A DNA stretch of 36,765 bases. Source: an uncultured Candidatus Saccharibacteria bacterium. GTDB lineage: Bacteria; Patescibacteriota; Saccharimonadia; Saccharimonadales; Saccharimonadaceae. The DNA is taken from positions 1 through 36,765 of the forward strand of contig CAMZHH010000010.1 in NCBI GenBank assembly GCA_947306745.1, given 5' to 3'. Positions 32,398 to 36,656 of the stretch are shown here, in pieces. A program made the translations under genes and the position numbers. Each line of letters begins with the position of its first letter. Positions within the stretch are counted from its first letter, which is position 1. The notes below the pieces were generated by a model. The model ran no database searches and had not been told where the DNA came from. It saw only the letters and a program-made list of their open reading frames with translations.

Positions 32398-33681
32398 TTA
32401 GACCTTTCTCAGATAATCACAGCCATGGCGCAGATTTGAGCAATAGTAAAAATCACCGCGCGGCCCATGTTTGAGTTTTAATTCCCCACTTTCACATTTT
32501 GGACATAGTTCGTTACGCGTGTTTCGTAATTCAGATGAGATTTCGTACAAAAATGGCGACGGGTTCTGATAGTTTGCAATTAGATAAGTAGCTTCGCGCG
32601 CCCGCGTGATAGCGACGTAAAACAATCTGCGCTCTTCTGCAAATGCAAATGGTTCCGAATGCGCAAGCATACTATCAATAATCGGATCCGTCTCGCGCTG
32701 CGCCGGCATACCCATCAAATCGTCATTCAGATTAAGCACAATCACAATGTCACGTGTAATGCCCTTCGATTTATGCATCGAACAGAATTCTAGTTTTAAT
32801 ATCTGCGTAGCGTCGGCTGGATTGCGCCAATAAATTGTGCCGTCGCGAATACGAAAATATGCACTGTTTTTAATGCGGCGCAAATCATGATTATAACGCG
32901 AGATAATTTGAAATTCTTTCGTCTTAACTATATCGTAGCCCTGCGTCGCAATGAGTTGCTGTAAAATTTTCGTGATTGAATTCGAATCGTCGTTTTTGTC
33001 TTCGGGCGCATTCAGAATAATATTAATTGGCGTACTTTTGTCCGCACTGCCGCGAACATCCTTGATCTTTTGCAATGGATTACGCTGAATAAAATCGGTA
33101 CTAGTCCTAATCGTAGGATTGCCAAAACGATGCGTAGTTTCGATTAGACTTTGGCGAGTTTTAAGCTGAAAATATTGCTCAAAATCCTGAATTAAAGTTA
33201 AATCACTGCCAGCGAAACGATAAATTGATTGCCAATCATCGCCTACGGCAAATAATTTGCAATTTGCATTACGACGCAGCAATTCTCGAATTAAATGGAA
33301 GCGGTTTTGTGATAAATCTTGCACCTCATCAACGAGAATATATTGATATTTAAATTGACCAGTACGGTCTTCGCTCACAATGCGCGTAGCGTCATTAATC
33401 ATGTCCGCAAAATCATACATGCGCTGATCGTTTAAATACTCCTCATATTTTTCGTAACAGGCAAAATAAATACGAAGAAATAATTCGGCACGATGCTTCG
33501 CAAATTCGTCTGGCTGAGCATTTAAGACTTTTGTTTGCACCTGCTCGGATGACAATTCGGAATTTTTATGAAGCGATAAAAAAGTTATTAATTTATTTTG
33601 CAAATCAATATAATCGTCTGGCGAAACTAATGTAAAGATTTCGGCTTCTTGAAGGCGGGGTGAATTAAATTGCTGCGCCAA
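32398..33681 (-). CDS. helicase IV-like protein, C-terminal part after an in-frame TGA
   Basis: The 427-aa C-terminal part of a UvrD/Rep-family (HelD-like) helicase. It contains motif II VDEVQDLS (117-124), motif III AVGDDWQSIYRFAGSD (146-160), motif V HKSKGITRD (303-311), motif VI YVAITRA (355-361) and a C-terminal zinc ribbon with Cys393, 396, 414 and 421 (topoisomerase type). The only start candidate is TTG 33681. The frame is the same as that of the upstream part, separated only by TGA 33708-33706 plus eight codons. Without the N-terminal Walker A it cannot be a complete ATPase. Confidence 0.85.
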   Translation of the reverse strand: MAQQFNSPRLQEAEIFTLVSPDDYIDLQNKLITFLSLHKNSELSSEQVQTKVLNAQPDEFAKHRAELFLRIYFACYEKYEEYLNDQRMYDFADMINDATRIVSEDRTGQFKYQYILVDEVQDLSQNRFHLIRELLRRNANCKLFAVGDDWQSIYRFAGSDLTLIQDFEQYFQLKTRQSLIETTHRFGNPTIRTSTDFIQRNPLQKIKDVRGSADKSTPINIILNAPEDKNDDSNSITKILQQLIATQGYDIVKTKEFQIISRYNHDLRRIKNSAYFRIRDGTIYWRNPADATQILKLEFCSMHKSKGITRDIVIVLNLNDDLMGMPAQRETDPIIDSMLAHSEPFAFAEERRLFYVAITRAREATYLIANYQNPSPFLYEISSELRNTRNELCPKCESGELKLKHGPRGDFYYCSNLRHGCDYLRKV

Positions 33682-33705
33682 AATTGCATAAATTTCATCC
33701 CCGTT

Positions 33706-34635
33706 TCACTGGTAGCTATATAGCGCTATTAAATGAGTGTTATATTTATGATGTATTCTCTCGCGCCATTTAATGTCGCGCAAATATTCCCGACCGCGAA
33801 AACTTTTGCCCATCTTTGTCATGTCAAAAAATTCTAAATACGTCAAGTCGGCCATGCTAAATGTGGGGCAATATTTAGCATTATGCGGATACGGTTGCTT
33901 TAGTTTGTATTTGATGCCATGCATGCGAAGCCATGTGGCGATTAACTGCTCGGAAACATGACGCAATTGCTCAGTATCTTTTTGGCGTAAATAGCGCCGA
34001 TTGTAATCAATCCAATCACGAAAAGTCTCCGCGCCGCCTGGGCTACGTGGACTGGGCGCATACAGTAACAAATAATCATTAATAATGCGCGCAAAGTCGT
34101 CAGTCGCACGAAGGTCATCAAGTGTGCAACTAAAAATCCGGCGCACCTCATCCTCGTCGATTAAAGTCTTACTACCCAAATCAGATTTTTGGCTCTGTAA
34201 TATATAATTGCCAAGGCTATGAAAAGTACGGATATCAGCGTCCTTCACACTGCACCGTTCCTTCAGTTCGGCGACGGTCTTTTGCGTAAATGAAATGACC
34301 AAAATTTGACGAGGCGGAATGCGCAATTCGTGCGCTAAGTATTCAATCTTCGCAAGCAGACTCAAAGTCTTACCCGAACCAGCCGAGGCTAAAACCAATT
34401 GCGCATCTTCACAAGCAACCACGGCTTCTATCTGTTGCGGATCGAGCGTACAGCCAGCGCAAGCCACTCCACGCTTCTGCGCCCGACGAATCACGTGGCG
34501 GTTATAGTATCGACACAAATATGACCACAATCCACCAAACGGGAACATCCGCCAGGCCACATAGTGCCGCCCATCAAAAACCGAGCGAAGTTGGCGCCAA
34601 ATTGTTGATATTTTCGTCAACATATCGACCAACAT
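33706..34635 (-). CDS. helicase IV-like protein, N-terminal part ending in an in-frame TGA
   Basis: N-terminal part (about 309 aa) of the same helicase. It has a basic N-terminal region, Q-motif LDPQQIEAV, Walker A ASAGSGKT, motif Ia ILVISFTQKT and the linker up to YSYQ, where a TGA interrupts. Reading through, the frame goes on as NGDEIYAILAQQF into the C-terminal part; the whole would be about 745 aa, close to helicase IV. I chose ATG 34635, which lies 7 nt after a -10-like TAAATT. TTG 34644 and ATG 34623 are alternatives. As it stands the gene is probably inactive unless UGA is read through. Confidence 0.82.
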   Translation of the reverse strand: MLVDMLTKISTIWRQLRSVFDGRHYVAWRMFPFGGLWSYLCRYYNRHVIRRAQKRGVACAGCTLDPQQIEAVVACEDAQLVLASAGSGKTLSLLAKIEYLAHELRIPPRQILVISFTQKTVAELKERCSVKDADIRTFHSLGNYILQSQKSDLGSKTLIDEDEVRRIFSCTLDDLRATDDFARIINDYLLLYAPSPRSPGGAETFRDWIDYNRRYLRQKDTEQLRHVSEQLIATWLRMHGIKYKLKQPYPHNAKYCPTFSMADLTYLEFFDMTKMGKSFRGREYLRDIKWRERIHHKYNTHLIALYSYQ

Positions 34636-34679
34636 AACAGTCAATTTAGATTTTTCGAAGCATAAGGATTTTAGTTTGC

Positions 34680-34716: not shown

Positions 34717-35151
34717 ATGGTAGATTACATGATTTTCGATGTTGTACGTAATGTCATTTCCGATGCGCTTGCGTACGGAAAAGAACACGACTTCGGAGAC
34801 GGAGCGATTGCAGTCGAAGTCAAGAACCTTCCAAAGGCAGACAGTGTTACTAAAGTCCATTCATTCATCTTCTGTGAGGTGATAACAACCGACGGCTTTA
34901 ATCATCACGACAAGGAAGAATTCTTGCGTGGTCACGTGCATTCGGCGCACGAGCGTCATTTGCGTGGAGAGAGTGTTGCCCCAACTGGCTGGGGTCCAGC
35001 GGCTATTACATTGGGCTTCAAAAAGTTGGTTTTTCCCGCAGAACCGAGTGATTATTCTATCGTCGTCGGCGTGATGGGTGACCATTCTGCAACCAACCAG
35101 CAGGTGCTGGACGAAGTACTAAAAGATCTGCCGCAACCGAACGGCGCGTAA
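34717..35151 (+). CDS. unknown soluble protein, plus-strand unit
   Basis: Product of 144 aa, His-rich in the middle (GHVHSAHERHLRG), without TM segment or signal; family not recognised. The His/Asp/Glu cluster could bind metal, which is speculation. The Shine-Dalgarno is near-perfect (AAGGAGGT, 6 nt from ATG) and a strong terminator follows, so it is a single-gene unit diverging from the helicase. Confidence 0.75.
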   Translation: MVDYMIFDVVRNVISDALAYGKEHDFGDGAIAVEVKNLPKADSVTKVHSFIFCEVITTDGFNHHDKEEFLRGHVHSAHERHLRGESVAPTGWGPAAITLGFKKLVFPAEPSDYSIVVGVMGDHSATNQQVLDEVLKDLPQPNGA

Positions 35152-35169: not shown

Positions 35170-35199
35170 GCCCTGGCCAAACCGGCCGGGGCACTTTTT
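35170..35199 (+). terminator. intrinsic terminator of the 34.7-kb unit
   Basis: GCCCTGGCC and GGCCGGGGC form a 9-bp stem (one T-G pair) with a 5-nt loop, then ACTTTTT. Confidence 0.9.
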
Positions 35200-35216: not shown

Positions 35217-35245
35217 TTGACTTTTTGGCTAATCTGTGATATAAT
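35217..35245 (+). promoter_or_regulatory. promoter of the small ORF and MFS leader
   Basis: TTGACT-N17-TATAAT with the TTGACTTTTT form. The predicted transcription start is 35252, the A of an ATG. Confidence 0.85.
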
Positions 35246-35251
35246 GGACTT

Positions 35252-35353
35252 ATGAACAGTTATATCTGTGCATACTGGCTTATGGTCATAAAAACCGTCC
35301 TTCTTAACGGTTTTGTTGTCATGCCACAAGTCATTTACGCAGAAACTGTCTAA
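35252..35353 (+). CDS. leaderless 33-codon ORF upstream of the MFS gene
   Basis: ATG lies exactly 6 nt after TATAAT, the window's leaderless spacing. The 33-aa product is hydrophobic (VIKTVLLNGFVVMPQVIYA) and looks like a signal peptide followed at once by a stop. It could be a small membrane peptide, a regulatory leader peptide for the MFS gene, or the remnant of a truncated secreted protein. A perfect 8-bp hairpin (35291-35314) lies inside it. Confidence 0.5.
   Translation: MNSYICAYWLMVIKTVLLNGFVVMPQVIYAETV
35291..35314 (+). terminator. terminator-like hairpin inside the small ORF
   Basis: AAAACCGT, 8-nt loop and ACGGTTTT form a perfect stem ending in TTTTGTTGT. It could act as an attenuator for the MFS transcript. 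The stem is weak and the U-run is inside it. Confidence 0.35.
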
Positions 35354-35363
35354 TTCTTGTAAA

Positions 35364-35447
35364 TCTAGATAAGTTTCAAAAGCGGACTTATCTAGAAATA
35401 AACATCTCGCCTTTGAAATTTATCTAGCCGTATAAAAAGATGGCTAG
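35364..35447 (+). ncRNA. candidate structured leader RNA of the MFS gene
   Basis: TCTAGATAAGT (35364-35374) and ACTTATCTAGA (35386-35396) form a perfect 11-bp stem. Its loop (TTCAAAAGCG, 35375-35384) can pair with CGCCTTTGAA (35408-35417) at 9 of 10 positions, making a pseudoknot. A second TTATCTAG (35420-35427) can replace the first as partner of CTAGATAA, and CTAGCC (35424-35429) can pair with GGCTAG (35442-35447). This switch-like layout lies in the ~238-nt leader before a strong Shine-Dalgarno. The ligand, if any, is unknown. A DNA operator is the main alternative. Confidence 0.5.
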
Positions 35448-35489
35448 TACTTTAAGACTTTTTCGCAATTTTTGAAGGAGGGATGTTTG

Positions 35490-36656
35490 ATGCGAAAAAA
35501 TAATCCTGTGCGCAATATGTGCTTGGTGATTCTGGAGTCAGCTGCGACGGCAGGCATCCTGGCCGTGCCAATCATGACTCCGTTTTACCTCAGTATCGGA
35601 CTCAATCAGGAGCAAATTGCCATGTCGCAGATGGCCTTCACGGTCGTAGCGATGGTATTAAATTTGCCACTTGGCTGGGTAGCGGACCACTTTAGCCGTA
35701 AGTGGGCGAACGTAGTCGGCGACGCGATGGTTGCCTTGGCGCTCTTACTCTACTCAACCGCCAACAGTTTTTGGTTCACAGTAATGTGCGAAATTATCTG
35801 CGGCGTCGGTTGCGCTTTGTCACAGGGCGTAGACTCGACTCTGCTAAAACATTTCGCCGAAAAGACCGACAAAACCGGCAGGCTCTTCAAGGATCAGTAC
35901 GGCAAGATGACCTCGATTAATCAAATCGCGTCATTAGTTGTAATGTTGCTTGGCGGGCCGATTGGCGCAATTGATTTTCGCTTAGCAATAGCCATCTCGG
36001 CAATTCCGCACGCTTGTGGCGCCATCTTAAGTATGCTTATTCAAGACGACAGCGAAAGGTTAGCCGCCGAGAGCAACCCGCTCCGCGATATCGTCAATCT
36101 CGTAAAACGTAACGTGAGCAACCGTAAACTGCGTTGGCGTTTAGCCGCTTTTGCGGTGGCACGAGAGGTAACACACGGCATCATTTGGGTTTTTACACCT
36201 TTAATGTTAGCCGTCGGCGTACCTTTAGCGATAGTTTCAATGGGTTGGGTTATTAATTATATCGCGGCCTATTGTGGCACTCGCTTGGCGCGTCGCTTCG
36301 CCACTAAGTTGCCACCTTGGGCGCTATTTATTACGCCAATCACATTAGTTAGTTTCGCGAGCCTTACGATGTTCTGGCATTTGAGTATTGTCACGGTCTG
36401 CCTATATGCCTGCTTCGGCTTAGCTCAAGGTTGGAGCGCGACAACCATGATGCCGCTAATCAAAGAACAAGTTAAAGCTGCCGAGCAAAGCTCTATTGAA
36501 TCATTGGCGCGCGTAATCGCTCAAGCTCTATACATTGGCGCCGTATGGGCAATCAATCGCGCCGCGGATTACGATGTGCGCTTTGCTCTGCTCGCAACCG
36601 TCGTCATCTTCGTGCCGCTTGCGATTCCGATTGCATTAAAATTGCGCAAAGAGTGA
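35490..36656 (+). CDS. MFS transporter
   Basis: Major facilitator superfamily permease of 388 aa with about 11-12 TM helices. It contains the loop 2-3 signature GWVADHFSRKWANVVGD (GxxxDxxxRK). The long central cytoplasmic loop is charged (QDDSERLAAESNPLRD). Substrate cannot be told; drug efflux is possible. The start at ATG 35490 is fixed by AAGGAGGG 7 nt upstream; the TTG at 35472 precedes the Shine-Dalgarno and is not real. It ends in TGA just before its terminator, so UGA is a real stop here. The unusual leader suggests regulation after transcription initiation. Confidence 0.88.
   Translation: MRKNNPVRNMCLVILESAATAGILAVPIMTPFYLSIGLNQEQIAMSQMAFTVVAMVLNLPLGWVADHFSRKWANVVGDAMVALALLLYSTANSFWFTVMCEIICGVGCALSQGVDSTLLKHFAEKTDKTGRLFKDQYGKMTSINQIASLVVMLLGGPIGAIDFRLAIAISAIPHACGAILSMLIQDDSERLAAESNPLRDIVNLVKRNVSNRKLRWRLAAFAVAREVTHGIIWVFTPLMLAVGVPLAIVSMGWVINYIAAYCGTRLARRFATKLPPWALFITPITLVSFASLTMFWHLSIVTVCLYACFGLAQGWSATTMMPLIKEQVKAAEQSSIESLARVIAQALYIGAVWAINRAADYDVRFALLATVVIFVPLAIPIALKLRKE

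Follow-up and report, generated by a model that had tools for sequence, protein, structure and literature searches.

A candidate ribosome-mediated attenuator in the leader of an MFS transporter gene of Saccharibacteria

The locus and its structured leader

The window (the whole 36,765-nt stretch of DNA analyzed here) comes from a gut Saccharibacterium, a member of a group of very small bacteria, and carries near its 3' end a gene (35490-36656, + strand) for a 388-aa MFS transporter (Pfam MFS_1, E 1.3e-21). The protein is a putative exporter, and a role in drug export is plausible because it is an MFS_1 protein whose closest curated models (NCBIfam) are tetracycline-efflux types, with scores far below cut-off; a PDB sequence search with it gave no match. 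The gene upstream (34717-35151, + strand, 144 aa) matched no Pfam or NCBIfam model and has a strong terminator on its 3' side (35170-35192). Beyond it lies a UvrD/Rep-type helicase gene (32398-34644, - strand) interrupted by one in-frame TGA (33706-33708), which leaves two ORFs in a common frame that match successive parts of PF00580; a nonsense mutation, an assembly error and recoding are the candidate causes.

Transcription of the transporter gene is predicted to start from a promoter at 35217-35245 (+ strand; TTGACT-17-TATAAT with a TG extended -10, 11/12 matches), whose position places the first nucleotide at about 35251-35252, that is, at the ATG of a 33-codon ORF (35252-35353, + strand; MNSYICAYWLMVIKTVLLNGFVVMPQVIYAETV followed by a stop codon). 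This ATG begins 6 nt 3' of the extended -10, and because of this very short distance we call the ORF leaderless. The transporter gene itself has a Shine-Dalgarno (SD) sequence, AAGGAGGG (35475-35482, + strand), upstream of its ATG at 35490, as claimed in a first-pass annotation of this DNA. The 241-nt leader is predicted to fold much more stably than its dinucleotide shuffles, with a minimum free energy (MFE) of -74.8 kcal/mol versus -45.8 +/- 4.5 for 200 shuffled sequences (z = -6.4; 0/200 as good).

All the helices listed by the first-pass annotation are indeed present where it placed them. Its 11-bp perfect hairpin is found at 35364-35374/35386-35396; the loop TTCAAAAGCG (35375-35384) is, by direct reading of the sequence, 9/10 complementary to CGCCTTTGAA (35408-35417); a second, competing copy, TTATCTAG, occurs at 35420-35427; and CTAGCC (35424-35429) can pair with GGCTAG (35442-35447), which with flanking bases makes an 8-bp hairpin (35424-35431/35440-35447). 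The annotation missed the leader ORF, which is the key part, and also the promoter, a third competitor (A, below) and the anti-SD region.

All switch elements lie on the + strand. The central one is segment B (CTAGATAAGTTTCAAAAGCG, 35365-35384), which has three possible partners. Segment A (GAAACTGTCTAA, 35342-35353) lies upstream, within the ORF, and comprises its last codons and stop; it pairs with B as GAAACT:AGTTTC plus GTCTA:TAGAT, with one bulged A, over 11 bp. Segment C (ACTTATCTAGA, 35386-35396) forms the perfect hairpin with B, and segment D (CGCCTTTGAAATTTATCTAG, 35408-35427) pairs with B along its full length, the 5' arm and the loop of the hairpin together pairing along 35408-35427. 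Segment A can also pair with segment 0 (35256-35270), located in the 5' part of the ORF, through ACAGTT (35256-35261) with 35344-35349 and TCTGTG (35265-35270) with 35338-35343, a pairing present in the MFE structure; segment 0 would be an anti-antiterminator. Hairpin E (CTAGCCGT...ATGGCTAG, 35424-35447) overlaps the 3' end of D. The anti-SD stretch (35400-35421), complementary to the SD region at 35467-35488, likewise overlaps D, and hairpin G (35459-35499, arms 35459-35467/35491-35499) encloses both the SD and the start codon of the MFS gene. The pseudoknot that the first-pass annotation had proposed between the loop of B:C and D found no evidence in its favor: the contact of the loop with CGCCTTTGAA is inseparable from one long B:D helix and is better taken as part of it. 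A pseudoknot is also disfavored by species of genus g2 that lack C, where B:D is a plain hairpin.

Conservation of the leader ORF and of the helices

A DNA search retrieved 22 further leaders, 21 from the same genus and one from another, and a covariance model built from the leaders of this search was positive in 29 of 394 genomes of the family. Owing to the palindromes, covariance model R1 gives scores on the reverse strand as well, and those matches were ignored. Widening the set by MFS protein searches and by reading upstream regions yielded 53 tabulated homologous leaders, spread over at least 11 genera of a single Saccharibacteria family and each located before an orthologous MFS gene. 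The near relatives with named records are metagenome-assembled genomes of Candidatus Saccharibacteria, several of them of rumen or faecal origin. Orthologues devoid of the leader are rare (L088, genome G045); the MFS gene of L088 has lost it altogether and is served by a promoter-like sequence close by and an SD of its own. On inspection, no such leader was seen before distant MFS homologues of other families (L099, L101-L103), nor before a second MFS gene in one genome (L100). Among the homologous loci, the orthologous MFS gene of a near relative, L008 (genome G031), is interrupted by one in-frame TGA. An insertion of ~150 nt separates C from D in the leader of L071 (positions 1555-1740, genome G390), where a further copy-like stretch, TCTAGATAAAAACTATTTTGAAAC, is present. 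In genome G246, the MFS gene is followed downstream by a SAM riboswitch (RF00162, 63.5 bits; L074:2904-2999, + strand).

The leader ORF accompanies the helices throughout. The frame from its ATG to segment A is open in 52/52 scored leaders and the other two frames in 5 and 3, a comparison that favors frame 0 since the chosen ATG was required to have a frame reaching A. Its length varies between 29 and 41 codons, and its stop sits inside or just past segment A. The gap between the -10 and the ATG is exactly 6 nt in 41/52 leaders and 7 nt in five; none of the 52 leader ATGs is preceded by an SD, which all 52 MFS genes possess, with the reservation that the starts of both were partly picked with gap and SD features in mind. 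Among close relatives of the window, pN/pS is 0.62 in frame versus 0.95 and 1.04 in the other two frames, which suggests weak purifying selection on the leader peptide. Regulatory codon runs are absent, the longest run of a single residue in the 52 scored leaders being three, in three leaders only. Given this weak selection (0.62), the variable amino acid sequence and the lack of a regulatory codon run, no stall signal is evident; features of a T-box or of an amino-acid codon attenuator were likewise missing, with neither such a run nor an Rfam match.

Pairing between the segments persists despite sequence change. In hand-aligned 13-column segments, D:B is 92.7% paired over 13 aligned pairs in 37 distinct variants, with double compensatory changes at 11/13 positions (a level reached by 0/1000 shuffles on each of the three measures), and A:B and C:B are paired at 80.6% and 82.8%, respectively (0/1000 shuffles on percentage paired). 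The homologous leaders thus carry the compensatory changes on which the first-pass annotation had made its reading depend. To guard against bias from related rows and from segments picked by hand, we also compared the duplex energies of cognate and partner-swapped segments with a single leader per genus (11 genera), a choice that partly handles kinship between leaders from these metagenome-derived genomes. Segments A, C and D of the distant leaders had first been chosen by eye, and with them the swapped partners did as well as the cognate ones in 0 of 20000 permutations for 0:A, A:B, D:B and the two arms of hairpin E, and in 2 for C:B; six control pairs (C:D, zero:B, A:D, zero:D, mid:A and mid:B) gave no signal in the same one-per-genus set. 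When regions were delimited by the ORF boundaries, B still being anchored by eye, zero:ORF end, ORF end:B and B:downstream each gave 0/20000, and the controls zero:B, ORF end:downstream and zero:downstream gave no signal. A partner for the arm of the start-codon hairpin was sought among the loop of B, C and D, and nothing convincing emerged; an apparent pairing between the 5' arm of G and the 3' arm of E is void because the two segments overlap.

Terminators in the relatives and their loss in the clade of the window

The B:C hairpin of more distant genera is a classical intrinsic terminator with a U-tract (for example GTCTCCGGCCTACGGAGAC-TTTTTATT in L090). In the genus-g2 species without C, this role falls to B:D (CCCGAAGCAAACGTTTCGGG-CTTTTTCT in L108), whose tail is weaker in several of these species. 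Intrinsic terminators begin at B+8 to B+10 in 22/30 hand-tabulated leaders and in 0/23 of the leaders first found, and a second scan confirmed them in 4/4 relatives having one. The B:C hairpin of the window lacks a U-tract, and two scans found no intrinsic terminator in the leader. Hairpin E was also considered as a terminator and rejected, with marginal tails only (flagged in L017-L019 by one scan and in L092 by another) and separate scans finding none for L017 or the window. Many genera have a short A/U-rich stretch such as CTTTTACA or AATTAACA after hairpin E (35424-35460 in the window), its position being conserved with E.

The MFS tree places the window in a supported clade of 20 members without U-tract (97/92), surrounded by a mostly terminator-bearing set. 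In this clade, cognate pairing is retained both for the anti-SD stretch with the SD (12/20000) and for the start-codon hairpin G (1/20000), whereas in the terminator set neither gives a signal; with ten deep lineages only, the values are 31/20000 and 327/20000, respectively. The simplest reading, if the root lies among terminator-bearing leaders, would be a single conversion from transcription termination to control of the ribosome-binding site (RBS). The read-out in the clade of the window is thus probably translational, given the loss of the U-tract and the co-evolving structures over the SD and start codon of the MFS gene. Folding predictions agree with this in part. Enforcing B:D raised the accessibility of the SD from 0.17 to 0.26 in the window, from 0.06 to 0.58 in L003 and from 0.22 to 0.95 in L010; enforcing A:B or B:C left the SD closed in the sub-clade of the window, and in L015 and L017-L022 accessibility was the same across the states of B. 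As for sequestration of the ermC kind, the clade thus has co-evolving structures over the SD and start codon, with an SD that responds only partly to the state of B, and the leader peptide with its own SD that characterizes that kind is found in 0/52 leaders.

This unevenness between relatives, together with the conservation of hairpin E and the lack of an intrinsic terminator in the window, would also suit a structured, conserved leader whose read-out in this clade is mRNA stability or Rho-dependent termination and not access to the RBS. We consider that alternative rather improbable, in view of structures over the SD and start codon that co-evolve precisely in the terminator-less clade.

A proposed attenuation mechanism and its alternatives

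We regard it as highly probable that the leader is a ribosome-mediated attenuator controlling the MFS gene. The RNA most likely senses ribosome stalling on the leaderless ORF, in the manner of the trp attenuator, the ribosome being taken as sensor because both the start and the end of the conserved ORF are strands of the switch. The trp-type attenuator of enteric bacteria follows a four-strand logic with a 1:2 helix, a 2:3 antiterminator and a 3:4 terminator, to which 0:A, A:B (antiterminator) and B:C (terminator) would correspond here; the Saccharibacteria leaders differ from it by their leader peptide free of regulatory codon runs, their leaderless start, the extra strand D and the transporter as target.

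According to the proposed scheme, RNA polymerase would start at or beside the AUG of the leaderless ORF and a ribosome would translate it co-transcriptionally. With no ribosome (state 1), 0:A would form and leave B free for C. A ribosome at the stop codon (state 2) would cover A, and B would pair with C. A ribosome delayed early in the ORF (state 3) would block segment 0, leaving A free to form A:B and preventing B:C. In most genera, where B:C (in the genus-g2 species, B:D) is an intrinsic terminator, states 1 and 2 would be OFF and state 3 ON. In the clade of the window, OFF would correspond to B held by C, with the D region paired with the SD and hairpin G closed over the start codon; ON would require that B be kept from C and that D, entering at the exposed 3' end of B, invade A:B, so that the long B:D helix forms and the SD is released. 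Because only enforced B:D opens the SD, we propose that A:B guards B from C until D displaces A. The likely cue would be slowed translation of the leader, caused for example by a compound that targets the ribosome and is a substrate of the MFS exporter. Plain thermodynamics favors B:C together with D:SD whatever the leader ribosome does, so that this model needs co-transcriptional kinetics; MFE folding with 5' truncations mimicking ribosome positions, in which B:C was mostly dominant in all cases, is uninformative on a co-transcriptional choice. The comparative evidence shows the leaderless ORF, the helices 0:A, A:B, B:C, B:D and E and the terminators of the relatives, as well as the terminator loss in one clade and the RBS-sequestering structures there; we infer the translation of the ORF, the order of events, the polarity in the clade of the window, the invasion by D, the inducer and the substrate of the pump. 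Hairpin E and the sequence 3' of it, both conserved, lie outside this account.

An opposite polarity in the clade of the window, in which a finished ORF would give ON and a stalled ribosome, through A:B, would free D to sequester the SD, seems to us unlikely. It would suit the closed SD predicted for the window when A:B is enforced (0.17 unpaired, only B:D opening it somewhat, to 0.26), and the logic of the terminator no longer applies in this clade, but it needs a flip while the same gene stays under control; moreover, the 3' part of B remains accessible in A:B, and D might displace A more easily than C could.

Ribosome-mediated attenuation is an already known kind of regulation, and the terminator-bearing relatives fit its transcriptional form, judging by their sequences, on every testable feature, the leader of the window being a derived variant. 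As in the trp and bmrCD systems, a short leader ORF, open in all scored leaders and at a fixed distance from the -10, precedes mutually exclusive helices that share strands, one of them within the ORF, with controls negative; the intrinsic terminator, absent from the window, is present in most relatives outside its clade. The Bacillus subtilis bmrB-bmrCD leader is a ribosome-mediated transcription attenuator with a small ORF before a drug exporter and predicted anti-antiterminator, antiterminator and terminator, where stalling leads to read-through (PMC4191407). The resemblance extends to the small ORF before a (here putative) exporter, the three-helix layout and the proposed role of the ribosome as sensor. 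By contrast, BmrCD belongs to the ABC transporters and bmrB has its terminator within the ORF, whereas here the protein is an MFS transporter and the ORF leaderless, with an additional competitor D, hairpin E and, in the window, no U-tract. In B. subtilis tlrB (yxjB), a terminator and SD sequestration coexist in one organism after a 9-codon, SD-led ORF with an RYR stall motif (PMC6851288); here the two occur in different clades and no stall motif was recognized. Leaderless upstream ORFs have been proposed as candidate cysteine-responsive attenuators in mycobacteria, whose translation system is rich in leaderless genes (PMC4633059). These are likewise small upstream ORFs, with cysteine-codon clusters and biosynthesis genes where we find no such cluster and an MFS gene. 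The novelty appears to lie in the host group, in a sensor ORF that is leaderless, in the competition between B, C and D and in the transcriptional-to-translational conversion.

We found no description of a leader-peptide attenuator in Saccharibacteria in the literature searched, and the evolutionary support is strong enough for direct testing. If correct, the proposed mechanism would mean that ultra-small, probably host-dependent bacteria sense the trouble of their own ribosome to regulate a putative exporter, and would offer a phylogeny-resolved case of a transcriptional attenuator turned into a probable translational one. Genetic work on this group, for which inducible expression systems have been called for (PMC11665869), would also gain the natural inducible leader that it lacks. 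A broader version is possible, and we put it forward tentatively: a family-wide drug- or stress-sensing attenuator, its leaderless ORF read by 70S initiation, would have been converted once from termination to RBS control with the sensor helices kept and with A:B as the kinetic chaperone that passes B on to D.

The first-pass annotation had left the choice between a riboswitch and an attenuator open. The alternative helices with compensatory changes across genera uphold the second; the first, a metabolite- or drug-binding aptamer formed by the A-B-C-D-E core with an incidental short ORF, is very unlikely. Switch-like alternative helices before a transporter and stretches nearly invariant within the genus beyond what pairing needs, TTGTA in the gap between A and B and CCGTATAA in E, would be expected of it. 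Between genera, however, the sequence of the core is mostly unconserved and only its mutual complementarity persists, and a riboswitch would leave unexplained an ORF open in every scored leader, at a fixed distance from the -10, whose two ends are strands of the switch. Nor did the Rfam search give any match above gathering score in the window or in the leaders of 8 relatives; the earlier remark that no described class has this motif thus agrees with Rfam release 15.

That the perfect palindromic arms near the promoter (CTAGATAAGT) serve at the DNA level, as a protein operator or transposon end, is scarcely credible, given that A, B, C and D change in compensation as RNA helices without preserving a binding sequence and that the element sits >100 nt 3' of the promoter, at a constant position ahead of a single gene family. 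The recurrence of this inverted repeat at unrelated loci, which the first-pass annotation had named as a sign of such a function, was not found: the palindrome occurs a single time in its own genome, where the leader element is also the sole strong match of the covariance model.
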